64,000 nt of DNA from a virus, in IMG/VR virus record IMGVR_UViG_3300012012_001194, positions 1 to 64,000 of that record; one strand, given 5' to 3'. The notes below the pieces were generated by a model, which was not told the origin of the DNA, did not search any database, and saw nothing but the letters and a program-made list of their open reading frames with translations. The translations under genes were made by a program, and so were the position numbers. Shown one piece after another: positions 2,982 through 58,700 of the stretch (position 1 is its first letter; every line of letters starts with the position of its first letter).

Positions 2982-3926
2982 TTATAAGCAGCTTCCACTA
3001 TCGCCAATACGGCTGCCTAACACGGTTAAATTCATACGATTAACCGAGCCCTCTAATCTGTTTAAGAAGTTAGTAAGGCTAGTGGCTGACTCTCCAAACC
3101 TAACTAGATCAGTAGTCACTGCTTCGAGCTCAGTACACCCGCAACACGGCTTTGAGCAGGTATCGGTAAGTTGTAGCCCATTAGCGACCGCTGTGATGCT
3201 AAGGCAAGAGTCTCCAACAAAGGATAAGTCTCCCCCCTCGGTTGGTTCCGTTCCGTTGATGGTTCGAATACAACTTGGAATGTCGTCATCGTCTTCGCAG
3301 TTACAATCCACAGTCAGCCCTTCACCTTTTATTGCATTAAAAGTTATGCTGGTGACTCCGTCTACTGTAGAAGACTCTAGCAGCATGTTGCTTCCAGCTA
3401 CAAAAGCTATATCGCCTTGTAGCCGTTTTGTAGTTGTGGATCCATTGACTAAAGTGATACTACTAACTCCACGAAGCATAAGTCTTATAGCATCAGAGTC
3501 TACGTTGGCGGCGTTGTAGGTGAAGTCATATGCTCCGGCTGGCAGACTACTAAGCTCATCTAGTTTTCCTAGTACAACTTTTCCAGCGCAGTCTAGAAAA
3601 TCTCCTTCGCCTATTAGAGAGTAAGTCTTATATTCTGAGTGTGATGAGAAGGCTATAGTGGTTGATGCTACAGTTATTCCTGAAACGTTATCCCAATACC
3701 CCAGCACAATGTTCAGCCCAGTAGAGAACACGGAAAGCGACCTTATATAAAACCGCTCAGGGAAGGCTACTAAACCAGTATGTATTGGAAAGTACAGCCC
3801 TAGAATAAGACTGTCAGGCATGGTAAAGGTCCCAGTCGTATCAACCTTGGAAGCGGTTTCTACAAGGGGGTAGCTTCTCTGACTGTTAGAATTGAGCCAC
3901 TCTAGGTTCCAAATGCCTACGACCAT
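2982..3926 (-). CDS. Tail-fibre-like virion protein with shared N-terminal and Cys modules
   Basis: A 314-residue protein starting WNLEWLNSNSQRSYPL, the N-terminal motif also found in the partial gene at 1-1630. After a beta-rich central part come an acidic cysteine patch (DCNCEDDDD), INGTEPTEGGDLSF and CSKPCCGC, which align by eye with the module in the 1630-2970 protein. It therefore shares one module with each neighbour, as if the fibre genes were assembled by module exchange. The C-terminal 50 residues look helical (LTNFLNRLEGSVNRMNL) and could be a trimerisation segment. Enzymatic residues were not seen. Function as a peripheral tail or baseplate protein is inferred from position. Confidence 0.62.
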   Translation of the reverse strand: MVVGIWNLEWLNSNSQRSYPLVETASKVDTTGTFTMPDSLILGLYFPIHTGLVAFPERFYIRSLSVFSTGLNIVLGYWDNVSGITVASTTIAFSSHSEYKTYSLIGEGDFLDCAGKVVLGKLDELSSLPAGAYDFTYNAANVDSDAIRLMLRGVSSITLVNGSTTTKRLQGDIAFVAGSNMLLESSTVDGVTSITFNAIKGEGLTVDCNCEDDDDIPSCIRTINGTEPTEGGDLSFVGDSCLSITAVANGLQLTDTCSKPCCGCTELEAVTTDLVRFGESATSLTNFLNRLEGSVNRMNLTVLGSRIGDSGSCL

Positions 3927-3953
3927 TAGCTTCGACCTCCATGTCGTAAGTTC

Positions 3954-5765
3954 TTAGTACAGTACAGCAACGGCTTCAATCAAGCCAACCTCGCCAGCGT
4001 AGCCATCAGAGGCTAACCTGTTAATCGAGAAGAAAACTATGTCTTGGCCGCTTATGCCTGTAATTGCAGAGCTGTCGATATCGATGTACTCGTCAGCAGC
4101 CAGCGTCGTGCTGGTGCTTATAGCAAGCCCTGTGTCTGTTGTTGGTAAGCTTTCTGGGGACCCAGAAGTTTTAGAAAGTACTCTGTAGCTAGCTGTGAGC
4201 GACGGAATAGTTCCAGCCGATCTTCCTAAAACTCTAAGCCTTAACTTTAGGCTTGGAGTATCTGGAAACGCGTCTTCATGAGGAAGCAAAACCTTAAGTC
4301 TAATAGAACTAGCTTGTACTGGCGGAAGGGCTAGGTACATTATTTCGTTGTAGTATCTCTCTTTAGCGTCGCTAAGCCTTACTATTTGCGGTTGTATAAT
4401 CCTCTCAGATGGCTCTATATTAGCTCTTATGGTAACGATGCCTTGATGGAGAGTGTCCCCATCATCAAGTCTGCTAAATGTTGAGGTGATGGTTACGCTA
4501 TTATCTGCCGCCTTAAGGCCCTCGATAACTCTGCCCCTTTTAAACTTACCACCTACTACGTTCTTGAAGGCTAAGGAGCCTAACTCTGTGTTGCTGTCAA
4601 TCGCTAGGCCTAGGTCTACCCCTATCTTAAGTGCTCCGGTGTTGGCCGGTTTATTATCATAGCACCCGATAATGCTGATGCCGCTTCCTGGGATTGGGTC
4701 CAAGCTTGTCACTACGGTCTTGTCCACCCCGTAAGACGACTTAACAAACCGAAGTAGTAGCTTCCTAGTTATGTCCCTAGGGCACTCAGCTGGGGATAGT
4801 GATGATCCTGACATGGATGATACCGATAGTGAAGAGCTAGACCCTAAGCTTTGGTAAGCCCACGGTACATCGTTGTAGCAGTCAGACATCCACCATATAC
4901 CGTTTATGTCTATATATACTAGGCCGCTAAGGCCCATAGGTAGCTCAACTCCGTTTCCATCGCCTTCGCTTTTAAATAGAGTCACACTTGAAGACTCTGC
5001 TGGCATGGGAGGGAATACATTATATAGGGCGGTGTGGGTTTTTAAGTTATACCCAAATGTCGCTTTTGTTGGTGCAAGGCCTTGAAATGAACTATCGTCG
5101 GCAGGAAGCCAGCCTTGCATTGTGCTGTCAACATTGATGATGCTATGTCTCCCGTTAACTTCAGGAGTTGGGGAGTCACCGCACGGAGTTAAATAGAGAT
5201 CAAATTCGTAATGTACATGATTAGACGGCCCGTCTCTAAGCTGAGGTTGAACAAATACAATACCATCTCCGTCATAGTGAAGCACAGCTACGTCAGCTAT
5301 TGCAGGGCTTTTTGATAGCTTTCCCTTTACTTTACCTGAAAGAAAGTAACGACCTGGCTCGGCTGCCGAATTATCATCAATGACTGAGGATATATTGATA
5401 GCGCCCCTGCCTACTAATAAGATGTCTGCAATCTCAGCGCCGTGCTTGTACAACACAACCCCTAGCACATCCGATAGTGGAGACGTCTCCAATGTTCTTG
5501 TCTGCTGATTGAATTCAAATCCAGCCAGCGCTCGTTCAAATCTAGACCTAGGTCCGTTCCAGCATACTGCCATGCCTACGGTTAAGTCAGGCTCCACGGC
5601 AGAGTCATATGCAACAAGGGCCTCCTTGTTCTCAATACCGTCAACACGGTCTTTGAGATACTGGGCCTGCCCTTCCAATGCTCGAGTTGGTCGGCTATCA
5701 ACTTTAGCCTCAATAGGCTCGCCGTCACGAACATGCTCAACTTTATTTGTCCAAGATGAAGACAT
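3954..5765 (-). CDS. Large baseplate or tail-fibre virion protein
   Basis: A 603-residue beta-rich protein, not recognised at family level. The first 200 residues include a segment resembling capsid or fibre beta folds (GRYFLSGKVKGKLSKSPAIADVAVLHYDGDGIVF pattern, residues about 138-170). A serine-rich linker (SSSSLSVSSMSGSSLS) separates this from a C-terminal beta domain. The dispersed palindrome described separately is inside the gene and is read here as LETSPLS, a different frame from the other genic copies. It sits 14 bases after the upstream gene. A structural role is inferred from position and composition; what it binds is unknown. Confidence 0.6.
   Translation of the reverse strand: MSSSWTNKVEHVRDGEPIEAKVDSRPTRALEGQAQYLKDRVDGIENKEALVAYDSAVEPDLTVGMAVCWNGPRSRFERALAGFEFNQQTRTLETSPLSDVLGVVLYKHGAEIADILLVGRGAINISSVIDDNSAAEPGRYFLSGKVKGKLSKSPAIADVAVLHYDGDGIVFVQPQLRDGPSNHVHYEFDLYLTPCGDSPTPEVNGRHSIINVDSTMQGWLPADDSSFQGLAPTKATFGYNLKTHTALYNVFPPMPAESSSVTLFKSEGDGNGVELPMGLSGLVYIDINGIWWMSDCYNDVPWAYQSLGSSSSLSVSSMSGSSLSPAECPRDITRKLLLRFVKSSYGVDKTVVTSLDPIPGSGISIIGCYDNKPANTGALKIGVDLGLAIDSNTELGSLAFKNVVGGKFKRGRVIEGLKAADNSVTITSTFSRLDDGDTLHQGIVTIRANIEPSERIIQPQIVRLSDAKERYYNEIMYLALPPVQASSIRLKVLLPHEDAFPDTPSLKLRLRVLGRSAGTIPSLTASYRVLSKTSGSPESLPTTDTGLAISTSTTLAADEYIDIDSSAITGISGQDIVFFSINRLASDGYAGEVGLIEAVAVLY
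5476..5493. repeat. Dispersed palindrome, copy 1
   Basis: AGTGGAGACGTCTCCAAT: the 14-base core TGGAGACGTCTCCA is perfect, the outer positions differ at one base. In the 603-residue tail gene, read in another frame as LETSPLS. Confidence 0.95.
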
Positions 5766-8006: not shown

Positions 8007-8927
8007 CTACTTGGCTTCTCTAACTGCGCTTTTTGGTTCAATTAGGCCCCACCCGTAAGTTGAGTCATATCCTGGGGAGCCTGCATCTAGAGCTGTTTTA
8101 AAGAAAGTTGTGGAGATTTCTTTAAGCAACTGCTTGTATTTAACGTTTTCTGCTTTAAGCGCTGACAGTACTAGTGCAAGCACGCCAGCTACGAAGGGGG
8201 TAGCCATTGAAGTTCCAGACAACTTAGCGTAACCAGTAGGCGGCCAGCACGAAGACACATCAACGCCAGGCGCTGCGATGTCTACCTTTCCTCGGCTAGA
8301 GAACATGGCGGCTAGGTTCTTTTTATTTACAGCGGCTACTGAGATACACTCTTTCATATTAGCCGGGTAGCCTGTAGTTCCTTGGCTTGGGCCTTCGTTG
8401 CCTGCGGCTGCCACTATAAAGCAGCCCTTAGAGTAGGCAAACTTTATTGCTTCTTTTATGCGCTTATCTAAAGATGAGGAGCCTAGGCTCATAGATATGA
8501 TGTCAGCACCTTCTGACACAGCCCACCGGATACCCTTTGCTATCCAATCAGCTGACCCTGATCCCGAGTCGTCTAATACTTTACCAATAAGTAGCTTAGC
8601 GTCAGGAGCTACGCCTATGATTCCGCTTTTATTCTTGTTTGCGGCTATGACTCCGGCACAGTGAGTTCCGTGGCCGTTAGTGTCGTAAGGCCCTGAGTTA
8701 GACTTACTGAAGTCTTGCGTAGCTATAATCTGACCAGCTAAGTCAGGGTGCTTGTCTGCTACGCCTGTATCGAGCACTGCGACCTTGATGCCCTTTCCTG
8801 AGGAGTCTGTCCAGATGTCGGGAATACTGTTAGCCCTTAGGCCCCAATCTATTGTCTCGGAGCAGGTCATAGACAGGCTTTCCACCGTGAATGGCGGAAT
8901 CTTGAATGGAAGCTTCTTAGTAGCCAT
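8007..8927 (-). CDS. Subtilisin-like serine protease (peptidase S8 family)
   Basis: A 306-residue protein with the complete subtilase catalytic set: Asp53 in VAVLDTGV, His86 in NGHGTHCAG, the oxyanion Asn177 in AAAGNEGP and Ser240 in SGTSMATP. It has no signal peptide and only about 45 residues before the catalytic domain, so a normal secreted pro-protease layout is absent. In a phage tail operon it could process virion proteins during assembly or cleave a host surface target during infection. The gene ends with TAG but the frame continues open for 44 codons (see the entry at 7872-8006). It follows a cluster of small membrane proteins with one base between. Fold assignment is secure; biological target unknown. 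Confidence 0.93.
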   Translation of the reverse strand: MATKKLPFKIPPFTVESLSMTCSETIDWGLRANSIPDIWTDSSGKGIKVAVLDTGVADKHPDLAGQIIATQDFSKSNSGPYDTNGHGTHCAGVIAANKNKSGIIGVAPDAKLLIGKVLDDSGSGSADWIAKGIRWAVSEGADIISMSLGSSSLDKRIKEAIKFAYSKGCFIVAAAGNEGPSQGTTGYPANMKECISVAAVNKKNLAAMFSSRGKVDIAAPGVDVSSCWPPTGYAKLSGTSMATPFVAGVLALVLSALKAENVKYKQLLKEISTTFFKTALDAGSPGYDSTYGWGLIEPKSAVREAK

Positions 8928-8928
8928 A

Positions 8929-9282
8929 TTACTTATCCTCGGTCTTTGGATAGTTGTTCTCGATCCATTTTACGACTAACTTAATAAGAACGGGCAGCAG
9001 CCACACAGGTATATCAAAAGCTGCTGTAGATGGTTTTCGCTTACCCTCAACCAGCTTCTCAAGAGTCTGCCCTACCACCTTCTTAGAGACTTTCGAACCT
9101 CTGATGGCCTTGGTTGAATAGGAGTCTGCAGCGTACTTCATGAGGTAGGCGGACACTTCCATGGCCGCATAGATAGCTTTCCACTTATCAAAGGCGGTCT
9201 TCCCCGTTAGCATGTCAGCCAAAGTCTTAGCAGCTGCGAATGGAAAGTCAGAGAACTTTACTGAGAATGGTTTTGCTGCCAT
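8929..9282 (-). CDS. Small protein with C-terminal hydrophobic segment
   Basis: A 117-residue basic protein. The first 80 residues are helical and rich in Ala/Lys; near the C-terminus lies IPVWLLPVLIKLVVKWIE, long enough for a membrane or amphipathic helix. I do not recognise the family. It sits between another membrane protein gene (9286-9660) and the subtilase, one base from the latter. The group could be a lysis or host-membrane module, but there is no direct evidence for a holin. Confidence 0.6.
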   Translation of the reverse strand: MAAKPFSVKFSDFPFAAAKTLADMLTGKTAFDKWKAIYAAMEVSAYLMKYAADSYSTKAIRGSKVSKKVVGQTLEKLVEGKRKPSTAAFDIPVWLLPVLIKLVVKWIENNYPKTEDK

Positions 9283-9285
9283 GGC

Positions 9286-9660
9286 TTATCCCTCTATAGC
9301 GTCTAGTATGGTTTGAACGTCGTTTTCATCTATCATGCTGGCTGCTTCAGATATAGCCTGCTCAATCAAAGTAATAGCTGGGTCACCAGCTACGCCTTTT
9401 GGTATCTTCACACCCTTGTCTTTAACTCCTGCCCTGATGATCTTCCTTATCTTAATCTTATCTAGAAGGCCTGGTTTTCTGATTCGGTTAAGCGCTTCTT
9501 TGGGGGTATTCTTGCATATCTGGTTTAGCCTTATGAGGTTTACAAGGATCGATACAAGCGCCGAGATAACCACAACTGTACTTATCACAAACCCTTTGGC
9601 ATCTAGCTTGTCTTTAAGGCTTGGGGCTATCTTGTCAGCTAGTTGGTTTACATTATTCAT
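9286..9660 (-). CDS. Small membrane protein
   Basis: A 124-residue protein starting at MNNVNQ. I prefer ATG 9660 over the in-frame GTG at 9690 because AAGGAAGG lies just upstream of 9660, and because the longer version would put the dispersed palindrome in the coding region. A single hydrophobic segment (VISTVVVISALVSILVNLI, about residues 25-43) is followed by a strongly basic stretch and a helical acidic C-terminus. One membrane pass near the N-terminus is therefore likely. Function unknown; possibly part of a membrane or lysis group with its neighbours. Confidence 0.62.
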   Translation of the reverse strand: MNNVNQLADKIAPSLKDKLDAKGFVISTVVVISALVSILVNLIRLNQICKNTPKEALNRIRKPGLLDKIKIRKIIRAGVKDKGVKIPKGVAGDPAITLIEQAISEAASMIDENDVQTILDAIEG

Positions 9661-9673
9661 TAGGACCTTCCTT

Positions 9674-9691
9674 AGTGGAGACGTCTCCACT
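9674..9691. repeat. Dispersed palindrome, intergenic copy
   Basis: AGTGGAGACGTCTCCACT, a perfect 18-base palindrome (20 bases with the flanking T and A), between the stop of the 9693-9890 gene and the preferred start of the 9286-9660 gene. This is the only copy in the window that can be non-coding. Confidence 0.95.
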
Positions 9692-9692
9692 A

Positions 9693-9890
9693 CTATTTGA
9701 AGTTACATAACTTACATTTACACTGAGCGCACGAGCAGGCCCCGTGGCAACTTACTGGCGGCTTGTCGCCGTCGCAGCAGCGGTCGTAGGTCTTAGTAGC
9801 CAGAACAGCGCCTATTACAGCTCCGACGCCCAGAATGGTCAATACCTCTAGGAACTGTATGAAGCTTTTAATTGTCTTTTTAAAGTTCAT
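9693..9890 (-). CDS. Small membrane-anchored cysteine-rich peptide
   Basis: A 65-residue peptide. Residues about 12-32 are a hydrophobic segment (FLEVLTILGVGAVIGAVLA); the 30-residue tail holds eight cysteines, with CC, CHGACSC and CKCKLC. The layout is one membrane helix with a short disulfide or metal-binding tail. I know no phage family it matches; it is shorter than usual spanins and lacks a lipobox in the expected place. It ends in TAG. No strong ribosome site was seen; a short inverted repeat (CTGGC...GCCAG, 9898-9912) precedes the ATG. Confidence 0.62.
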   Translation of the reverse strand: MNFKKTIKSFIQFLEVLTILGVGAVIGAVLATKTYDRCCDGDKPPVSCHGACSCAQCKCKLCNFK

Positions 9891-9926
9891 TGTTTAACTG
9901 GCATACCGCCAGTACCTTTACTACCG

Positions 9927-10109
9927 TCAGCAGCTTGTAGGTTTCTTAGCCCGCCTAGGAATGTAGCTTTGATTTGTGTATTTATCTTCTACTACTGGCT
10001 CTTTGTCTTTTATTATTAAAGCCTTTGAAGGAGCAAGTAAATCAAACGATGCCTTATCCAACTTAATAGTTTGATAAGGCATCAGGGTAGCTAAAATGAT
10101 GTATAGCAT
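9927..10109 (-). CDS. Small hypothetical protein
   Basis: About 60 residues from ATG 10109, which has AAGG six bases upstream; a TTG eight codons earlier is possible but has no ribosome site. The sequence is mixed hydrophobic/charged (MLYIILATLMPYQTIK at the start) with a basic C-terminus. No family recognised. A perfect 11-base inverted repeat (10048-10083) lies inside the frame, so the coding status is less certain than for neighbours and the region could also act as an RNA hairpin. Confidence 0.45.
   Translation of the reverse strand: MLYIILATLMPYQTIKLDKASFDLLAPSKALIIKDKEPVVEDKYTNQSYIPRRAKKPTSC
10048..10083. repeat. 11-bp perfect inverted repeat
   Basis: GATGCCTTATC and GATAAGGCATC are separated by 14 bases. 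In RNA of either strand this makes an 11-pair hairpin. No U-tract follows it on the minus strand, so it is not a standard terminator; it could be an RNA-processing or protein-binding site inside or before the small gene at 9927-10109. Confidence 0.85.
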
Positions 10110-10143
10110 GTCCGGCCTTGCCTTGTATATCAAGGCTTTAAAG

Positions 10144-11079
10144 TTACACCAACATAAACAGGGCTTTGTCTATCAGCTGCTCAGGGAACCCTTCAAAGTT
10201 ACTAAAAGCAAAGGTCTCTTTGGCCCTGATATGCTTTTCAGCGTCTTTGCGCCTGATCCTTAGCACGCCCACAGGCAGGTCAACTCCAGTATCAAAGTCT
10301 TTAAGCTGGCCATGAGAATCGGCCCAGCTATTAAGAATGATAGCGTAAGGGTCTCTATCATTATCATCTACGCCAATAAAGCACATCTGATGACCCCAGT
10401 TATCTGTTTGTCTATGGAATCCGTCGTTAGCTGGTGTCATGCTGTAACCAATATCGCTAGCAGTAGTACAAGGGTAGCCATTAGATATGGCAGCTACTAA
10501 GTCGTCCCAGCTCTTAATCAGGGCTGCCGATTTTACCGGGTGCATTTTACCTTCCTCTACGAACTTATTATCAGGGCCTGGGCTGTCTCCCCACTTCTTA
10601 GCTACTTTTCCAGAATATGCTGGCACACCACCAAAATTACTGCGAAGAACACCGTATTTAATAATAGCGTCTGCCATCCAGCTTCCCAAGGAGCCATCGT
10701 CACCATCTAACTGCCCTCCTCCGATAAGTACTCGGCCTGTGCCATAGAGATAAGGCGGGAACACTGGGTTAAAAGCTTCCCTGTCGCCTTTCATAAGCTT
10801 CTCGGTAGCCATTAAGTATTCACAAGCATTCTTAGCTCCAAAAGACACGCAGTCACCGATCTCTTGTGCGTAGTTCTCTGTGTCTTTACCTAGAAGCTTT
10901 CTTACAACTTCATACAGCATAGTCTTTCCACCCTTAGTGCTTCTTGTAGAGCTAAGGATGTTAAACTCTTTAAACGAGCTGCTAAGCAAATCAAATTGAG
11001 CTTTGACTAATTCTGGGTTGTCTTTACCTGCCCAGCCGCCCTTAGCGCCGTTCTTGTATAGCTTTAGGATATCGCTCAT
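10144..11079 (-). CDS. Papain-like cysteine protease (C1 family fold)
   Basis: A 311-residue protein with the papain-type catalytic residues in order: Gln72 and Cys77 in QEIGDCVSFGA, His230 in NWGHQMCFIGVDD and Asn250 in ILNSW. There is no signal peptide. Papain-like enzymes are uncommon in phage tail operons. It follows the gene for a secreted-type protein (11090-11863) with ten bases between, and precedes small membrane proteins and a subtilase, so two unrelated proteases lie within 4 kb. It might cleave host envelope proteins or process tail proteins. Family assignment is good; target is unknown. Confidence 0.85.
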   Translation of the reverse strand: MSDILKLYKNGAKGGWAGKDNPELVKAQFDLLSSSFKEFNILSSTRSTKGGKTMLYEVVRKLLGKDTENYAQEIGDCVSFGAKNACEYLMATEKLMKGDREAFNPVFPPYLYGTGRVLIGGGQLDGDDGSLGSWMADAIIKYGVLRSNFGGVPAYSGKVAKKWGDSPGPDNKFVEEGKMHPVKSAALIKSWDDLVAAISNGYPCTTASDIGYSMTPANDGFHRQTDNWGHQMCFIGVDDNDRDPYAIILNSWADSHGQLKDFDTGVDLPVGVLRIRRKDAEKHIRAKETFAFSNFEGFPEQLIDKALFMLV

Positions 11080-11089
11080 TTTATTTTCC

Positions 11090-11863
11090 TTATTTTACAG
11101 ACTTAAGACCTGCTGCTACTTCTCTCCAAGCCTCAGCAAAATCTGTGGCTGTTAGCATTTGCTTACTCTCGTAAAGGGAGTAAAGCGCTTCCTGCATTTC
11201 TTTAAAGAAAGGCTCCCATGCAGCTTTGTTGGCGCCTACTGCTGCTCTGTTAGACTCAGCAGTCTTCTTTAAAAGTTCATCGACTTCCTTGATAGCCCCT
11301 GCGGCTACGGCTGACGCCATAGATTCAAAGGACTTTGCAACGGCTGTTGCAGATCCTTTACGGATAGCTGCAGGCACCTTATTAATAGCTAAGGAATAGG
11401 CTTTCTTTTGAAGGTTGTATCTAGCTTCTGGAAACGTAGGCTCAGGAGCTAATGGTTCTGGATTTGGGTCTAAGTCTTCACCAATGATAACTGGGGAAGA
11501 TATAATAACAGTCTTGGTGACTATCTCTGACGTTTTGTCGCCTTCTTTGACTACGTAGAGATAAGTGATAGCTGCTAGTGCTGTCATACGTTTAGGTACG
11601 ACTCCGGCTCCAAAGAAGATACCGTCTTGGTATTCTCTTACTCTTTTTTCTTTGTCTCCATCAAATACCTTCCAAGCAATACTGCAAGATACAAAGTGCT
11701 TTGGTGGATCTTTAATAGATGACACAGTGAGGTCCACCAGCTCCCCGAGGGGAACTGGGGCCTCGGCTCCAACAATCTTCTGCTGTGGGACCACAAAATC
11801 GGTCGCCAAGGAGCTGCTGGAAATGAGGATCGTAGCTAGTAGGCTAAACAATATCTTATTCAT
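11090..11863 (-). CDS. Signal-peptide protein, unknown
   Basis: A 257-residue protein starting MNKILFSLLATILISSSSLA, a clear Sec-type signal peptide with cleavage probable near residue 20. The mature part starts with a beta domain (QQKIVGAEAPVPLGELVDLTVSS) and, after a Pro-rich hinge (PNPEPLAPEPTFPE), ends in a long alpha-helical domain. Export by the host Sec system during infection is inferred, to the periplasm or cell surface. ATG 11863 has AAAGGAAT upstream. Adjacent to the papain-like protease, it could be a partner or inhibitor-like domain for that enzyme, but no motif shows this. Confidence 0.68.
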   Translation of the reverse strand: MNKILFSLLATILISSSSLATDFVVPQQKIVGAEAPVPLGELVDLTVSSIKDPPKHFVSCSIAWKVFDGDKEKRVREYQDGIFFGAGVVPKRMTALAAITYLYVVKEGDKTSEIVTKTVIISSPVIIGEDLDPNPEPLAPEPTFPEARYNLQKKAYSLAINKVPAAIRKGSATAVAKSFESMASAVAAGAIKEVDELLKKTAESNRAAVGANKAAWEPFFKEMQEALYSLYESKQMLTATDFAEAWREVAAGLKSVK

Positions 11864-11873
11864 AGATATTCCT

Positions 11874-12149
11874 TTACTTAGAGTGTGCCGCTAAGGCAGC
11901 AGCTACCAATTGTGTAGCTCTTTCCTTGCTTACTGGAGTACTAGGACCAAAAGCCTCTATCAGGGTTACAACTAAGTCAGCAAACCAAGGTTGATCTGCA
12001 AACTGTTTAAATACTTCTACGACCCTGTCATCAACATCGCCAGGAATCATTTTGGTCATAGAGTCGGCGATCTTCACAATAAGATCAATCGCCTTCTTTA
12101 CTTTCTCTGCGTCTAAGGCTACTTTAGCTACAACGTTATCTTCTGACAT
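11874..12149 (-). CDS. Small helical protein
   Basis: A 91-residue, predominantly helical, acidic protein (MSEDNVVAKVALDAEKVKKAID at the start). It has no signal peptide or membrane segment. It lies between the J-like baseplate gene and the signal-peptide protein gene. Family not recognised. Confidence 0.55.
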   Translation of the reverse strand: MSEDNVVAKVALDAEKVKKAIDLIVKIADSMTKMIPGDVDDRVVEVFKQFADQPWFADLVVTLIEAFGPSTPVSKERATQLVAAALAAHSK

Positions 12150-14328: not shown

Positions 14329-14790
14329 TTAGCCGCCGTTGGCACTTAGTTCAATTAACTTTTCTATATATCCCAGCACCCCGTATGGAGATTGAAGCGG
14401 ACCATCTCCGCTGCCCTGCCCTCTTCTTCTTCCGGCTGAGAAAGCTTCTGATCTGGCTAAAGAGCAGTGCCTTAAACGAAAGGCTCGCTCCATCGCTTGA
14501 AGATAAGCAGACTGCAGCCTGACGACCTTGGCATCGCCATCAGTTCCTGGCGAGGCTTGGTTGTAAACATCTTGGCAGTTGCTGTCTAGCTCCCCTCTGC
14601 TAAAGGTGTCTCTTACAGCAGCATAATTACCAGGATCTTTGCCCTTGTGGTCTGCAAGCTCCCAAACGCGGGCTCCACCATTAAACATGGCGTCAGCCAT
14701 TTCATTTGACTGCGCAGCCATCTTCGTAATGTTGTCTTTAAACCTAGTATCTGGGCTACTGACCTTTGATATTCCGTAATAGTCACTCAT
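14329..14790 (-). CDS. Hypothetical protein between sigma factor and gp25-like gene
   Basis: A 153-residue protein, helical with a Gly-rich C-terminal stretch (RRRGQGSGDGPLQSPYG). Its ATG overlaps the stop of the sigma-like gene by four bases (ATGA), so translation is probably coupled to it. Family not recognised. It may be a small baseplate part or an accessory of the sigma-like protein. Confidence 0.58.
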   Translation of the reverse strand: MSDYYGISKVSSPDTRFKDNITKMAAQSNEMADAMFNGGARVWELADHKGKDPGNYAAVRDTFSRGELDSNCQDVYNQASPGTDGDAKVVRLQSAYLQAMERAFRLRHCSLARSEAFSAGRRRGQGSGDGPLQSPYGVLGYIEKLIELSANGG

Positions 14791-15617
14791 AGCAGACCCA
14801 TCCTTTCACGGCTGTCCATCTTCTTTTGAATGTCAGCCCTTATTTGGCTTACCCTAGCCGGGGTTATACGCAGCTTGTTAGCAATACTAATGTTATCTAA
14901 TATCTTCTTACCATTCATCCCAAATGTGTGCTCCATGATAAGCTTTGACCTATCGTCTAGGCCGTCATGGACAAAGCCTCTCCAAGCATCGCCTTGCTGC
15001 TGCCCCGGTATAACTGATGATGGATCTGAGGCGTCTTCACTTTCGGAACCTGCAAATGCCTGAGTAGCTGCCCCTTCTGAAAGGCCAGGCTTAAAGCTCC
15101 TAACTCGCTCTATGCGCCTGCCGCTTAGTCCTGTGTAGTCAGCTAGCTCAGAGTCATTAGGCTCTCTACCCAGCTGATCCGTAAGTTCGTTAAATGAGTT
15201 ATTGACGTAGTGGCTGTCAATCCTCACTCTTTCAGGGACATTTAAAATTTGGTTAGACTTAGCTGCAGCTCTTTTTAGGCCTTGGAGGTGCCACATCATA
15301 TGAGTTTTAAGCTTGGACTTTTCTGGGTCATAACTTCTTAGCCCATCCAGGGCCATGCGCTTGGCTTGCAGCTTAACGCTGGGAGAAGCCTCTGCGCCTA
15401 CGTAAGTTTTTATGGCGCTGTCTATGATAGGTTTTAGCTTTCCTACCATCATATCGTTTTGCTCTGGGGATTGGTTTTGCTTCCAAAGCCCGTAATGCTC
15501 ACCAAACTCAGGCTCAATGTTTGAGCTTGGTTTTGGCGGCGTGCCAGGTGCTTGTGGCTTTTGTTTATCTAGAGAGAACATGTTGGGCACTTGTTCAAAC
15601 GGTTTCTTTGGTTCCAT
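14787..15617 (-). CDS. RNA polymerase sigma factor (sigma70-like)
   Basis: A 276-residue protein with a Pro-rich N-terminus. Residues about 50-130 fit sigma region 2 (SYDPEKSKLKTHMMWHLQ followed by a basic helix and NVPERVR, as in FliA/SigB-type factors). Residues 144-172 (LGREPNDSELADYTGLSGRR) fit the region 3 helix-turn-helix. Residues about 215-270 (DDRSKLIMEHTFG, then SIANKLRITPARVSQIRADI) fit region 4, whose second helix recognises the -35 element. Most likely it programs either the host polymerase or the phage-encoded polymerase found at 49-60 kb. It is embedded in baseplate genes, with AAAGGAAT before its ATG. Confidence 0.82.
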   Translation of the reverse strand: MEPKKPFEQVPNMFSLDKQKPQAPGTPPKPSSNIEPEFGEHYGLWKQNQSPEQNDMMVGKLKPIIDSAIKTYVGAEASPSVKLQAKRMALDGLRSYDPEKSKLKTHMMWHLQGLKRAAAKSNQILNVPERVRIDSHYVNNSFNELTDQLGREPNDSELADYTGLSGRRIERVRSFKPGLSEGAATQAFAGSESEDASDPSSVIPGQQQGDAWRGFVHDGLDDRSKLIMEHTFGMNGKKILDNISIANKLRITPARVSQIRADIQKKMDSRERMGLL

Positions 15618-40596: not shown

Positions 40597-42024
40597 TTAA
40601 GCCAATACGTTATAAGCAGCCACCGCTCTACAATAACTAGACACCTGAACTTCATCCTTAGCAGCAGCTTTAATCCATTGAAGCTGGTGCACGGCATAAG
40701 CCTTAGCCAGTTCTTCATACTTTCCGTTATCATTTGCGGTCTTTTCTAGCACCGCAGGGGCTTGTACATTAGCGATAACCAGCCTTCGAACGCCAGCTTC
40801 TAAGTTATTAGGGCTAAGCGAATGAGCCGCTGCCATCTTACAAGATTCTAGGTTTTGCTTTTCGGTAGATGTTGTCTTTTCTGGATCAGAACTCTTGTCC
40901 GTCGCCTTTTCAATAGTGGAGACGTCTCCAATGAGCTTAGTGAATACGCCCGGAAGTTGTTTCTTAACTTCTTTGGCAACTTTATCGTGTCCCTTAGCCG
41001 TTAGCCAGTCTTCAACGGACACTAAAATGCCTTGCTTAGCGCAGGCGGACCATGGGTAGCTGCCATTTGCAGAGCCTTGCTTCCAAAAAGACAAGGGTTT
41101 AACCCTGTCGTGAATTGCGGCTAGTAGTATCGGGCTGAATTCTTTGGCGGTCTTTTCTAGTTCAGCCATCTTAACGGCGACTTCGACCATTTTGCCGATG
41201 TCAGCAGAGAGGTCACCGCTTAGAACGCCAATCGAAGCACCTACTCCGGCAAGTTCAGCTAATTCTGCGCCACCAGCAACATAAACGCCAGAAGCTGCTT
41301 TGTAATGACCGACTACCCAAGCTATGCGGTCCGCTGGGCGATAAACATCGCTGATATCAAACCAAGTTGGATTAGGGTTGTCTACATGGAGAACATGGCC
41401 GTCTTCGGCTACCTTGGTCAGGTTAGCCTTGCAACCACCATACTTGCACATATCTTCGGTGCAGTACTCATCTCTGTTTCTTGCCTTATTACCACAGCCT
41501 GAGCAGACGTCATGGGCAACCTTGCAAGCCATGCTTACGCCCCAGTTATCATCCCCAGAAGCTATCTTCTGCATTTCTTTATCAGCAACTAGCCCCTTGT
41601 TACGGGCAGCGGCTTCTTTAGTGGCGTTAAGGGCTACGATAAGTTCAACCCTCTTCATCTTCTCGTTGAACATTGAGGCTTTGACTAAGCCGTAGCTCTG
41701 TTGCGGGTCTTTGTTCTTGTGATTGCGGTACCAGCGGGCATGCTTAATAAATGTATCGTGGTATTTGCGGCAAGTGGCTTCTTTAAAACCATCACCATTA
41801 CGGTTAGGGCCGTAAGCTTCCGTAGCTCCGATAGCGATCATATGAATAGGCTGTTCGCCTGGCTTAAATTCGATTCCTTTAAGGAGGTGGGCGGCTTCGT
41901 CACCCGCCCGCTTTACGAACGAAGATAAGTCAGACCCGACTAAGCCTTTAGAAGATAATTTTATAAGGGAGCTAACTGAGTCCCCAAAGTTCTGAGAGTT
42001 TGGAGCGATAATCTTGATCATCAT
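40597..42024 (-). CDS. Probable prohead maturation protease with cysteine knuckle
   Basis: A 475-residue protein. The first 180 residues have a prohead protease-like layout: IGATEAYGPNRNGDGF (67-80), YRNHKNKDPQQSYGLVKASM (about 99-117; His102 and Ser110 are catalytic candidates) and MKRVELIVALN. Around residues 170-200 is a cluster CSGCGN...CTEDMCKYGGC, a zinc-binding insert. The long helical C-terminus may be a self-removed pro-part. The gene is directly upstream of the scaffold-like gene, the usual order. The palindrome is inside the gene, encoding IGDVST. A protease is likely from context and pattern, but not proven. Confidence 0.6.
   Translation of the reverse strand: MMIKIIAPNSQNFGDSVSSLIKLSSKGLVGSDLSSFVKRAGDEAAHLLKGIEFKPGEQPIHMIAIGATEAYGPNRNGDGFKEATCRKYHDTFIKHARWYRNHKNKDPQQSYGLVKASMFNEKMKRVELIVALNATKEAAARNKGLVADKEMQKIASGDDNWGVSMACKVAHDVCSGCGNKARNRDEYCTEDMCKYGGCKANLTKVAEDGHVLHVDNPNPTWFDISDVYRPADRIAWVVGHYKAASGVYVAGGAELAELAGVGASIGVLSGDLSADIGKMVEVAVKMAELEKTAKEFSPILLAAIHDRVKPLSFWKQGSANGSYPWSACAKQGILVSVEDWLTAKGHDKVAKEVKKQLPGVFTKLIGDVSTIEKATDKSSDPEKTTSTEKQNLESCKMAAAHSLSPNNLEAGVRRLVIANVQAPAVLEKTANDNGKYEELAKAYAVHQLQWIKAAAKDEVQVSSYCRAVAAYNVLA
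40917..40930. repeat. Dispersed palindrome, copy 5
   Basis: TGGAGACGTCTCCA with AG before and AT after, so the outermost base pair differs from the 18-base form. Inside the probable protease gene. Confidence 0.95.
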
Positions 42025-48647: not shown

Positions 48648-49019
48648 TTATCTAGGTCGCATATTTAATAGGTTTCGAGTCATGCTACCGCTATTCATTA
48701 GGTCGAGCATAATTCCAAACCTTGTCGCCTGGGCCATCTTAGCATAATTACCATTCGAGGTGTTAGTGGAGACGTCTCCACTATTTACCTGAGATACGGC
48801 AGCGGCCTGATTAGATACAGAAGGCAGTAGCGTAGACGGGGCCATGGCCTGCGGAAGTGTGTTTACTTGGGCTGCGGCTTGCGGAGATGGCTTACCAGCT
48901 TTAGCAGCAGAAAGGGGAGGCGTAGCGGATGAGCCGCTGCTGGCGGCAGGCTTAGGAATCGATAAGTCTTTTGGAGAAGCGGCGCCAGCAGCTGCCCATT
49001 TATTAAGAAAATAGCTCAT
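48648..49019 (-). CDS. Small Ala/Ser/Pro-rich protein
   Basis: A 123-residue low-complexity protein (AAAGAASPKDLSIPKPAASS) with a hydrophobic C-terminus (FGIMLDLMNSGSMTRNLLNM). Its ATG overlaps the stop of the RNA polymerase beta' C-part gene (TAATG), so it is translationally coupled to it and might be a polymerase partner. The palindrome falls in the disordered part and codes SGDVST. Confidence 0.55.
   Translation of the reverse strand: MSYFLNKWAAAGAASPKDLSIPKPAASSGSSATPPLSAAKAGKPSPQAAAQVNTLPQAMAPSTLLPSVSNQAAAVSQVNSGDVSTNTSNGNYAKMAQATRFGIMLDLMNSGSMTRNLLNMRPR
48764..48783. repeat. Dispersed palindrome, copy 6
   Basis: TAGTGGAGACGTCTCCACTA, perfect over 20 bases, in the 123-residue gene, translated SGDVST. 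Confidence 0.95.
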
Positions 49020-50938
49020 TAAAGTACCCCTTTGTCTTCTTTCATGTCTAAGACACCGTTGTCCATTTGCTTAGTGTTATACCCTTTTACTGGGCCTTTG
49101 CGTCCAAAGTCAACAGCCTTAGCTAGAGAAGGAACATAGGAAGTACTTTGCTCATCACTTATAGCCCCACGATGCACAGCTTGCAGAGTCGACTTTTTAA
49201 GGTTACTACCAAGCATGCGAGTCATCCAGTCGGGGTCATGCTGAAGGTTTTCTAGCCCACGGACAAAGTGAGGCTCAAAAGGAGCGGGCTTATTATGGAC
49301 GGTAACCTTACCGACGCCGAAGTCATTAAAGTCATTAATCATCGAAGGCTTAATCTTAGTACCTATGGTGTAGTGCAGAACTGGCTGCTCTAAATAATTA
49401 CCTACTGATTCACTAGGGGTTACTATTCTATGTCCCTCTCTAGGTTCCCAGTCGTGCTCCACTGAGTCATAGGGGACAACATCATCTGGGGCAAATTGTT
49501 TGTACTCATCCGTAAGCTTAATGTGATTAATAAGCCCTTTCGACATAACCTCAATATTACGACGATTACCGCCCATGCCGGCGTTTCTCATAGCACCTTT
49601 GAAAGCTTGAACAAACTGCCTGCGCCCTTCGCCTATGCCTTTGAACTTAGTCAACTGAGCAGGGTTTGCTATGCCGTCAGAAAGGGTGTCGCCAGCCTCT
49701 ACTGTATCGTTGAGCTTTACAGATACTGCGGCTTCAGGGTTAACATAGTGGTCTACCCCGTTGATAGCTACAAAATACCCGCCGGTTGCTGCTGGCTTAA
49801 TGCCTGTAACCTTTCCATCTGTCTGTGCGTGGGCGGCCCAGTAAGGAGACTGCTTAGGCGCCTGCACCAATTGATTTAAATGTTTAAACCCTGATACGGC
49901 TCCTGCGGCTCCGGCTACGCCACCAGTATGCTTTGAGCTCAGCTGCCCTTGGGAGATTGGCTCCGAAAGCGCTTGCATCGCAGCAATACCTACAGAGTCT
50001 CCAATAGGAGCAAAGCCTCCCCGCTCTCTTATTCCTAAGTCTCTAGAGTAAAGTCCGCCATCGGGAGCGCCCATGGCTATTGGACTACGAACTAGAAGCC
50101 GTTTAAGGTTCTTAGACTTTAAATCTTTAAGTATTCTTGGAGTTAAGACGGTGTTTCTGCCATACCCTCCAGCCGGCATAGCTAGAAGAGCGCCCTCGTT
50201 ATCATCATCCTCGATGTCTACAGGAAGCCCGCGGTTTTCAGACCTCGTAGGATCCTCAGCGTCGTCGCCTACCACGATCATCCTATGGCCGATTTGATTA
50301 AGCTGCTTTGAGAAGAACCCAGCGTCCATGGTGGCGAACTTGGTATCCGCAACCCCTTTACGAGCTCCGAAAGCTCCAGCAAAGTATTCTGCAGGGTTAA
50401 GACCTTTAGAATAGGAGCTGAATACCGGAATAGGTATTGGGTTGTCGTGGTGGTCTGTGTAAAGTAAGTCACCGCCCCTTAAGCTTTTAAGGTTCATCGG
50501 CTTACCACGGGACCCAGACTGAATCTGTCTAGCTAGCTGATTATTCTCCCTGACGGAGTCATCGAATATACCCTTCTCCATGTCCTTCTGAGAGTTGTTC
50601 AGCAAGTCGATCATTTGGTTGTTTTTACCGGTCTCGTCGTTCTGAGGGTCAGCCATAATGCTGGCTATGGCGGTTCTAAGCTTAGCCTTTGCATCCATAG
50701 AGTACTTAGACTCTCTGAGATCTTTAAGGCCGAACGAGAACCCACCGCTGCCATAAGCCACATCTCTACCAATGTCGTAGAGCTTCTTTGACACTTCTTT
50801 GTACTTATCAGGGTGCTGCTCCGCTATGGTCTGCATGAGCGCTGCAGAGGACTTAGAATCTAAAGTTCTAGAGTAGTCCTTAAGTTCATTAGGGAGGGCG
50901 TCGTTAACCATGATCTGACCGATGGTGGTCCTAAGCAT
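49019..50938 (-). CDS. RNA polymerase beta' subunit, C-terminal half (split)
   Basis: A 639-residue protein beginning LRTTIGQIMVNDALP, the point in beta' known as TT(V/I)G(R/Q)..., downstream of the active-site part. It then has the F-bridge and trigger-loop region: QIQSGSRGKPMNLKSLRGGD (138-157), SKGLNPAEYFAGAFGARKGV (177-195) and DTKFATMDAGFFSKQL (198-213). Residues 315-340 (VGIAAMQALSEPISQGQLSS then KHTGG) match the motif of beta' GEAVGIIAAQSIGEPGTQ. In the region of the second zinc cluster (RSPIAMGAPDGGLYSRDLG) the cysteines are absent. With the 55729-60204 protein it would complete the catalytic core. Alpha and omega homologues were not seen here. Confidence 0.93.
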   Translation of the reverse strand: MLRTTIGQIMVNDALPNELKDYSRTLDSKSSAALMQTIAEQHPDKYKEVSKKLYDIGRDVAYGSGGFSFGLKDLRESKYSMDAKAKLRTAIASIMADPQNDETGKNNQMIDLLNNSQKDMEKGIFDDSVRENNQLARQIQSGSRGKPMNLKSLRGGDLLYTDHHDNPIPIPVFSSYSKGLNPAEYFAGAFGARKGVADTKFATMDAGFFSKQLNQIGHRMIVVGDDAEDPTRSENRGLPVDIEDDDNEGALLAMPAGGYGRNTVLTPRILKDLKSKNLKRLLVRSPIAMGAPDGGLYSRDLGIRERGGFAPIGDSVGIAAMQALSEPISQGQLSSKHTGGVAGAAGAVSGFKHLNQLVQAPKQSPYWAAHAQTDGKVTGIKPAATGGYFVAINGVDHYVNPEAAVSVKLNDTVEAGDTLSDGIANPAQLTKFKGIGEGRRQFVQAFKGAMRNAGMGGNRRNIEVMSKGLINHIKLTDEYKQFAPDDVVPYDSVEHDWEPREGHRIVTPSESVGNYLEQPVLHYTIGTKIKPSMINDFNDFGVGKVTVHNKPAPFEPHFVRGLENLQHDPDWMTRMLGSNLKKSTLQAVHRGAISDEQSTSYVPSLAKAVDFGRKGPVKGYNTKQMDNGVLDMKEDKGVL

Positions 50939-55728: not shown

Positions 55729-58700
55729 CTACTCCACTATGACAACTTTGTCGTTGGCATCAATCTCGCCGGAACGGTACGCACGCATGGCATCAGCCTT
55801 AGTCTTGAAGTACCTCTCTGGCCTCTTAGATGCTTCAGAAGTGGCGGTGTAGAGCCCGCCTTGGTATTCATTCATTGGCAACTGATGAACCTTGAAGTTC
55901 TTTACAGCGAACAGGTTTCTGCTGGGTAGCATCTTCTCCATAGCGTCTTTAACCGCTTCGTCAGTAGTAGGCACATGGTAGTTCATAGCATCGCCATCGA
56001 AGTCGGCGCCAAACCCTTTTACAATAATAGGAGGAACTTGAAGAGTACTTCCCTTAACAAGGGTAGGCCTAAACGCCATAACCCCATATCTATGTAACAC
56101 TGGAGCACGAGTAATGATAACAGGTCTTGCTTCCATCTCAGAAGTCATGGCATCCATAGCCATCTTATCTTTATTCTCTATCATTTCTGCGGCTTTAAAC
56201 CTATCAACTCCACGCCTGACTAATCTTCTCATAATAAATGGCTTATACACTGCCCAAGCCCTGTCTTCAGGGATACCGACTTGATCCATGTCCAGTTCTG
56301 GATTAGGAGTAATAGCAGCCCTACCTACCATGTCAACATTAGATGCTAATAGCTTTCTTTGAAGGACACTGAACTTAGGGTTATCACCAAAGACTTGCTT
56401 TAGTATTCCCTTTACGTTCTTCTGCTCTAACTTTGGATTGGTAGCATCGCCAAGCCCAGTTACGGCTTTGAGGGAGTCATAAACGCTTGTTCTATGCTCA
56501 GAAAGATCAGAGAAGCTCTTGGACGACTCCCTCATCTCGTTGTTAGAGTCGATCAACTCTTTATAAAGATAGTTAGCGTCTCCAACCATAGGCAGCCCGC
56601 TTGACTGCATCACGCTAACTGGCCTAAATAAAGGAGGAAGCACAGGAGCTTTAGACATCATCCAGTCAGATGGATGCATATTCAGTTCTTTAGTGCTCTT
56701 AAGATACCCAAGTTTACGAACTGCTTCATCTCTGTAAGACTTCTTACCAGAAGCTATCTGAGCTCTGGCTTTCATGATCTCTTGGTCGACATTGATCTTC
56801 TTTAGTGCTATCCCAATAGCGTTAGGTCCCTTAACGCCGTTAAGAGCTTCTTTACCAGCTAATACGTCTCTAAATTTGTTCTCTGTTAATCCCAGTACTT
56901 TGCGTATGGGCTCTTCCATAACAGGGTTAGGCATCGGCTCGTGCAGCTTTATGTGGCTCCACATCGTACCGCCATGGCCGCCCGTAAGCTTAGGGTCAAA
57001 TAACCCATCACCGACTGGCTTCATGCCGCCTTCCCAATCTACGGTGTCGGATCGCTTAATCTCACGATCGCCTGAGAGGGAGTCTATATCTCTATCAGTC
57101 AATGCCATGAGCTGTGTCTTGGAGCCGCTGCGCACGGGGTTAATTCCAGCTGCTTGGAGCTGTGCCATAAACTTGCGATAGGTCAAAGGCACTCTAGGGA
57201 TTGGCATAGCCTTGCCCCCCATGAAGGCCGCCCAGTAATCATCGTTCTTCTGGCCTCGAATAGCTCCTGCGTCTCTTAGAACCTCATGGGCCCCGTGAGA
57301 GAGTAGAGCGTTAACGTCCATGAGGGCCATTCTTTTAGATCCGGTCTCTCCGCCTTTAGCCGGGGTCTCTTCAGCGGTGTACCCGCTAGAAATTCCTCGA
57401 CCTTGGCCTTTAGACTCAGAGGTGTGATGCAACTTCATAAAGAAGCGATTGCCTGTGAAGATGTTCTTAATCTTCTTACCTGACTCAGGATCTTCGAGGT
57501 CTTCCATATCACTAAGGTTGTTTTTTCTAAGCTCATCGATAGCGAACTCAGTAAGGTCTTCGATGTTGTCGAAGTCTTTAACTGCGTAGCGTTTACCTGT
57601 CTTCTCAGATATCTTTCCAAGAGCAGCTTCTACCATCTGGCTTGGATTAGTTCGAGTAATAACCCCAAGCGGGTTTAGTAGTACTTCAAAGGGCCGTCCG
57701 TCTGCGCCTTTTGGCATCTTGTCATCAGGAACAACAGTGGAGATAACTCCTTTATCACCATAACGCCCGGAGAGCTTATCTCCTTCTTTCATGGGGTTAA
57801 GGCTCTTTACCGTTACTGCAAATCCTTTTTTAGTTTGAGCCACGTCGGTAACCACACCTTCGTTCTCGTGATCCCACGTGGTGCTGGCGTTATTAAACCC
57901 AGTCCTAGACCTTCCAACTTGCTGGTTATGGGCTCTTGAGAGTACGTTAGCTTGTAAGATAAGTGGGTCACCTTTTCTTACAACTGTACCCGGCTTAATC
58001 ACACCGTTGTCGTCAAGGTTGTCTACGAGGGCCCTAGAATAATCAGAAGGAAACAGTGTAAGAAACGCCCGCTTTCCAGGCTTGGTGTCTTTGTCAAATT
58101 CAGCCTCATGCTGATACATGTGCTCAGAGGTTAGACGTTTAGCTGCGCCTTCTGAAATAACAATAGCGTCTTCAAAGTTGTAACCCTTGTAAGGTATGTA
58201 GGCGGTTCTAAGATTAGTGCCTAGCGCAGATGTGCCTTTGTCATTAGTGTAGTTAGATCTAGCTAACAAGTCACCTTGGTTGACAACATCACCAACTTTT
58301 ACGGTAGCCGTGTTATGTAGAAAAGTCTTACGGTTGAATGGAAGATTATTATAGATCTCTTTCTTGTGAAGCTGGCCGTCTTCTCCCCGTACATGAATCT
58401 CATCACCATCTACTTTGATTACTTGGCCCGCTACATCAGAGTGTATAGCGCCCATATGTTTACCGTAATCTTCCTCATAAGACTTGTCGTCTTCATCGGG
58501 CATACCTGATTGCACATAAGGGGCTTCAGGGTTTTGTAGGGGTAGCGCCTGCGTAAGCATGCGGGCGCCCATCATTACTCGCTGCCCTTTGGTAGCGCTC
58601 TTAAGAGGAATCATATTGGCTAGCTGATTAAAGGCGTGCTCCATGCGAGGAAGCTCATGGCTAACCTCTGCTCTGTTCACGTACTTGATCTTACCGTTAA

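Follow-up and report, generated by a model that had tools for sequence, protein, structure and literature searches.

A papain-like protease and a Sec-exported partner as a putative mobile two-gene module of phages and a candidate lysis cassette

Genes at the locus and the papain-like protease

The DNA analysed here (the window) comprises positions 1 to 64,000 of the 101,503-base IMG/VR virus record IMGVR_UViG_3300012012_001194. Among its tail genes were found genes for a papain-like cysteine protease (C1), a subtilisin-like serine protease (S8) and a Sec-exported protein of 257 amino acids (Sec257) immediately 5′ of C1 (Table 1). A first-pass annotation had described two proteases with their catalytic residues, small membrane proteins separating them, a Sec-exported protein preceding C1 and no signal peptide on either enzyme. 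All of this was borne out: the open reading frames (ORFs) and residues were verified, three small ORFs in the interval between S8 and C1 (8929–9890) each encoded a hydrophobic segment, and neither C1 nor S8 of the window had a signal peptide. The layout of Sec257, judged from its sequence, was a Sec-type signal (MNKILFSLLATILISSSSLA), an N-terminal part, a Pro-rich linker and a helical C-terminal part.

C1 alone matched Pfam Peptidase_C1 (PF00112) with E=0.015 and 15.8 bits, below the curated cut-off of 20.7, and was therefore filed as a divergent papain-like branch and not as an ordinary member of PF00112. When a C1 profile was compared with the PDB, papain-family chains were the sole matches. 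The Gln oxyanion residue, Cys nucleophile, His and Asn of the papain family were found in order in C1; Q72, C77 and H230 were invariant in 40/40 diverse relatives, and N250 was retained in 38 of them. An AlphaFold (AF2) model with these 40 diverse sequences as input had a predicted local distance difference test score (pLDDT) of 87 and a predicted template-modelling score (pTM) of 0.89; 18 near-identical sequences as input had given an unusable model (pLDDT 37). In a fold search of the PDB with the C1 model, the best 50 matches listed were papain-family proteins, headed by xylellain, cathepsins and Lpg2622. By profile and predicted fold, the assignment of C1 as papain-like is sound. A further, third papain-fold enzyme was seen in the same phage, a stand-alone Peptidase_C39_2-like protein of 194 amino acids (L174:10015-10599, record 72515-73099, minus strand; E=2e-14).

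Where measurable, the ratio of nonsynonymous to synonymous substitution rates (dN/dS) was about 0.05–0.07 for both C1 and S8, i.e. purifying selection, indicating that both are functional genes. Loss of catalytic residues among relatives, for which the first-pass annotation had proposed to look, was seen neither in the 40 C1 sequences, N250 varying in two, nor in S8, whose four residues were verified and retained in 4/4 S8 genes aligned.

At four loci (L028, L030, L031 and L033) the C1 ORF was 666 amino acids long, owing to an intein that matched Hint and LAGLIDADG. The insertion site lay exactly before the catalytic Cys (GD/CYVAGTKVCMADG ... IAQHN/CVSFGA, slashes marking the junctions), making this Cys the +1 extein residue. 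Since the catalytic Cys would thus be the +1 splicing residue, there would be no active protease before splicing. Inteins favour essential sites, which supports C77 being essential, and an intein on the active-site Cys would provide an enzyme of this kind with a natural switch.

Exchange of Sec257 and C1 as a unit, and the separate history of S8

The window was mostly 90–97% identical to the contig of locus L002 from about 11.95 to 10.1 kb, the interval holding Sec257 and C1, and about 65% identical on either side. S8 lay outside this block and was at backbone divergence from the L002 contig; the synonymous divergence (dS) was 0.3–0.4 for Sec257 and C1, whereas S8 and baseplate J were at or close to saturation. 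A block of high identity in flanks of ~65% indicated that the module had been exchanged as a unit between sister phages. The C1 tree, in which some forks were weak, did not track the phage backbone: L039 of the window clade was nearest to phages of another type, and L107 adjoined a T4-like phage.

To this was added the constancy of the pairing. Iteration of a hidden Markov model (HMM) of the Sec257 family, built on close relatives, picked out 13 members from the 1762 ORFs of 30 distant loci. All 13 shared the orientation of C1 and lay 0–0.7 kb to its 5′ side, most of them immediately adjacent. The HMM missed lipoproteins beside C1 in L141, L142 and L163–L167 and the proteins of the deepest group (L118–L140), and the pairing in these loci is by position only. 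A protein with one transmembrane segment, resembling the window's 134-residue protein, was 3′ of C1 in phages of the ThyX/NrdJ type; the homology was weak (E about 1e-3), these matches being nonetheless the best among all ORFs. On these sequence comparisons, C1 and Sec257 form a mobile two-gene module.

Relatives of C1 in IMG/VR numbered 34 close ones and about 159 with a wider profile; none was found in the 50,697 deposited phage records searched. Large phages from freshwater are among the carriers of C1 and its exported partner. The sites of the module differed. In the window clade, and in L107 (186 kb, with the gene order of the window), it was in the tail operon, with baseplate J on one side and further tail genes on the other. 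A second phage type had it between ThyX-like and class II ribonucleotide-reductase-like (NrdJ-like) genes, and a third (L049) had it close to T4-like head genes, the gene names of the last two being judged from sequence. The contigs of L006/L044 and L027/L041 (206 and 221 kb) carried two divergent, syntenic C1 regions 145.6 kb apart in one record, which points either to the joining of two related phage genomes or to duplication of a large region.

The first-pass annotation had raised an attack on a proteinaceous host surface such as an S-layer. These sites bear on one form of this idea, in which C1 and/or S8 are carried in the virion and break down a host protein layer, be it an S-layer or a protein wall, as the phage enters. 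Their place among tail genes in the window clade and L107, and the inheritance of S8 with the tail backbone, would suit such tail-borne enzymes. However, the Sec257–C1 module lay outside the tail operon in other phages and prophages, a tail-binding domain was seen on neither enzyme, and an exported partner and membrane anchors on C1 relatives (see below) suit an envelope reached from inside rather than virion assembly in the cytoplasm. This role has thus lost ground, and we regard it as rather unlikely.

S8 was an unambiguous subtilase (Pfam Peptidase_S8, PF00082, E=8e-64, 216 bits), and its closest solved relatives were intracellular subtilisins (ISPs) and thermitase. It has no signal, and its N-terminal KIPPF aligned with the segment of a solved ISP that holds the LIPY motif; the forms in the clade were KIPPF, KLPPY and KLPDF. 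The LIPY motif of ISPs blocks the active site (PMC6220982). S8 is likely a latent cytoplasmic protease.

At this level of similarity S8 was found at four loci, all on contigs with the window's whole tail operon. A profile search detected it in 5/20 C1-bearing phage contigs, all of the window clade; it was absent from the other C1-bearing contigs, including those of 141–221 kb, and from nine further distant phage records. In L107, a gene for a 172-residue protein, and not S8, stood between C1 and the tail gene that follows. S8 was inherited along with the tail backbone and, being clade-restricted and outside the recombination block, was rejected as a member of the module. The first-pass annotation had treated the two proteases as one set and had suggested checking whether their genes co-occur; the pair was confined to one clade. 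Joint action of C1 and S8 is accordingly very unlikely: the two are adjacent in five contigs of that clade, but S8 is missing from all other C1 phages tested and the histories of the genes differ. As a general rule it is largely refuted, and it could hold within the window clade.

Table 1. Positions of the genes and elements discussed (window coordinates unless a locus is named)
Feature	Position	Strand	Remarks
S8 subtilase, 306 aa	8007..8927	minus	Asp53/His86/Asn177/Ser240; ISP-like, short N-terminal extension KIPPF; window clade only
117-aa small protein	8929..9282	minus	hydrophobic segment close to C-terminus; window clade only
134-aa protein, one transmembrane segment	9286..9690	minus	putative holin
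65-aa protein, one transmembrane segment, Cys-rich tail	9693..9890	minus	poorly conserved
C1 papain-like cysteine protease, 311 aa	10144..11079	minus	Gln72/Cys77/His230/Asn250; module core
Sec257, 257-aa Sec-exported partner	11090..11863	minus	signal MNKILFSLLATILISSSSLA; same family 5′ of C1 in other phages
91-aa small protein	11874..12149	minus	also 5′ of Sec257 in other phage groups, 26–37% identity
Recombination unit with Sec257 and C1	approx. 10100..11950	minus	about 86–97% identity to L002 contig, flanks about 65%
Intein-bearing C1	L028:6711-8711 (L030, L031 same coordinates)	plus	Hint, LAGLIDADG
Intein-bearing C1	L033:281-2281		Hint, LAGLIDADG

Genomic settings and a candidate role in lysis

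Cellular relatives of C1 were found in two Planctomycetota genomes and in one metagenome-assembled genome (MAG) labelled Proteobacteria (the taxonomy of Alienimonas was checked). A first genome scan with a tight C1 profile gave no matches. C1 was detected in 13/392 sampled Planctomycetota genomes as against 1/299 Pseudomonadota control genomes, the latter being the seed MAG itself; with the seeds left out, the enrichment in Planctomycetota had a Fisher p=0.001. On the chromosomes of three planctomycetes (L165, L166 and L167), C1 bore an N-terminal transmembrane segment and the gene order was an exported or anchored small protein, C1, a secreted thioredoxin-like protein, a short gene or spacer, and the terminase large subunit, identified by its ATPase motif. 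The lysis genes of phage lambda lie upstream of terminase, and the position of the C1 cassette in L165–L167 was for this reason read as a lysis slot. In two Planctomyces-like genomes, a C1 cassette occupied the same chromosomal place (L141:7524-8420 and L163:9554-10450). Judged from sequence, its neighbours there were genes for a sugar-nucleotide dehydratase and for a U32-type peptidase. Phage structural genes were absent nearby; this cassette is perhaps domesticated.

Many C1 relatives had an N-terminal membrane anchor (e.g. the distant L110, L113 and L124), and in L115 (1138-2883) and L116 (9749-11458) C1 was joined via a transmembrane segment to a thioredoxin-like domain. Transmembrane proteins were also encoded around the module. 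It was preceded by genes for a coiled-coil protein with a transmembrane segment in L103, L106 and L109, the last also having a protein with two such segments; a protein with three was near the module in L110, and in L113 and L116 transmembrane regions were joined to the Sec domain.

Canonical endolysins were sought with profiles of six families, the same searches being positive in control genomes. In 18 phage records (up to 206 kb), Amidase_2, Phage_lysozyme, SLT, CHAP and Peptidase_M15_3 were all absent, and M23 gave no match above the cut-off. Two sub-threshold M23 matches (G023 and G017) were rejected as lysins; they fell in long ORFs, with 1397 and 639 residues, that probably encode RNA polymerase subunits. 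Two prophage-like contigs (38 and 46 kb) were scanned with Pfam over almost all of their ORFs; portal, capsid, head-tail, integrase, thioredoxin and other families were matched and no endolysin family. Pfam scans of the pooled ORF sets (A5, A6 and A7) covered the best 25 families, and weaker matches may have escaped notice.

We therefore propose, with moderate confidence, that C1 and its Sec-exported partner act as a proteolytic lysis cassette, degrading the envelope. The proposal is based on the conserved pairing, the catalytic residues, the predicted papain fold and the exchange as a unit, together with the site upstream of terminase in prophages, the relatives with a membrane anchor or a fused thioredoxin, and the absence of canonical endolysin families. 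The enrichment in Planctomycetota also speaks for it, as does a description of planctomycete walls as having a protein layer that withstands boiling SDS (PMC3422733). C1 would reach the periplasm late in infection, in the window phage by way of a hole that a small membrane protein opens and in relatives by means of its own N-terminal anchor. There it would meet the partner, exported beforehand, which may target or activate C1 or link the membranes, and would cleave envelope proteins, presumably its substrates, until the cell bursts. In the planctomycete relatives, the secreted thioredoxin could open disulfides of envelope proteins. The lysis or envelope role, one of several offered in the first-pass annotation, has in this way gained support as far as C1 is concerned, from the lysis-slot site in prophages, the holin-like neighbours, the anchored relatives and the canonical endolysins not found.

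Several points weigh against a lytic cassette. In the window phage it lies within the baseplate/tail operon, with no thioredoxin nearby. The holin-like proteins beside the module matched no named holin family. Most of the records searched for endolysins are incomplete, and Pfam models may miss an undescribed peptidoglycan hydrolase. A planctomycete host for the window phage is suggested by its C1 relatives only. Besides the protein layer, Planctomycetes possess a peptidoglycan sacculus that is sensitive to lysozyme (PMC4432640); a protease alone may therefore not suffice, and may work beside a peptidoglycan hydrolase not yet seen.

A module that is patchy, mobile and swapped between unrelated phages also resembles accessory modules, and a chromosomal copy free of phage genes was kept at the same place in L141 and L163. 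Both would fit a role in periplasmic host control or superinfection exclusion, in which the exported protein and C1 alter the envelope during infection or in the lysogen, blocking other phages or feeding the phage without lysis. The site upstream of terminase, the holin-like neighbours and the absence of canonical lysins argue against this, and we consider it unlikely.

The first-pass annotation had also suggested that virion proteins are trimmed by C1 or S8, and several phage proteins with common N-terminal leaders resembling cleavable peptides would suit this. However, the window encodes its own candidate capsid-maturation protease (40597–42024, judged from sequence only), relatives of C1 carry membrane anchors, and elsewhere the module is away from tail genes and not linked to structural genes; trimming is highly improbable. 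One of the leaders, M[ND]RLE[KR]A[AV]AFGxMMGKxA, occurred on otherwise different proteins (L174:18230-18649; L175:2993-3628, 3628-4281 and 4316-5737), and a second, MRSFNKLANLHxVFFKR, at L174:18689-19792 and L175:9547-10035. They are possibly packaging or propeptide signals cleaved by a prohead protease.

Returning to lysis by C1 and its partner, a wider version may be put forward tentatively, and is itself doubtful: in phages of Planctomycetota, lysis would be chiefly proteolytic. A papain-like enzyme would take the place of the peptidoglycan endolysin, with the help of an exported partner and, in prophages, of a thioredoxin, secreted or fused, to open disulfides; in some phages an intein at the catalytic Cys would keep the enzyme inactive until splicing. 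Little is known of lysis by Planctomycetota phages, whose hosts have an envelope of peptidoglycan and a tough protein layer, and literature searches on planctomycete phages, their lysis or papain-type phage lysins returned nothing relevant. If the proposal is true, proteases would become a further class of phage lysin. The family concerned is widespread in phages and sits where a lysin is expected, which opens the question of lysis to test.

Elsewhere in the window, a sigma-factor-like gene (14787–15617) lay within the tail operon and was kept in the window clade and L107. A multi-subunit-type RNA polymerase was encoded at 55729–60204 and 49019–50938; one of its ORFs fuses a beta-like part with a beta-prime part up to DFDGD, with more pieces in adjoining ORFs. 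Promoter and terminator scans did no better than chance.

Comparison with known systems

With the papain family (xylellain, cathepsins and Lpg2622), C1 shares the fold and the Gln-Cys-His-Asn active site, but it is only about 15% identical, lacks a secretion signal and sits in a phage cassette, and some of its relatives have gained a thioredoxin domain or a membrane anchor. In BFVD, C1 peptidases from uncultured Caudovirales matched its fold (E 2e-9, TM-score about 0.6–0.7), yet at 17% identity. S8 resembles ISPs and the ISP-like proteases of Bacillus and Moorella phages (phrog_3677), with 44% identity to that of Moorella phage MTATph1 over 96%; the Moorella and Bacillus phage homologues lie among replication or small genes, whereas S8 of the window lies between tail genes, and the motif of its clade is [IL]P[PD][FY] instead of LIPY/F.

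The Sec257–C1 module is like the lambda-type lysis cassette (holin, endolysin and spanin) in its site before terminase in L165–L167, its transmembrane neighbours and its exported partner. It is like the signal-arrest-release (SAR) endolysins in the N-terminal signal-anchor on many C1 relatives, although C1 of the window has no transmembrane anchor. In contrast to both, the enzyme is a papain-type protease and not a known peptidoglycan hydrolase, and the partner is not a recognised spanin. If lysis by this pair holds, phage lysis cassettes would have a further, proteolytic form.

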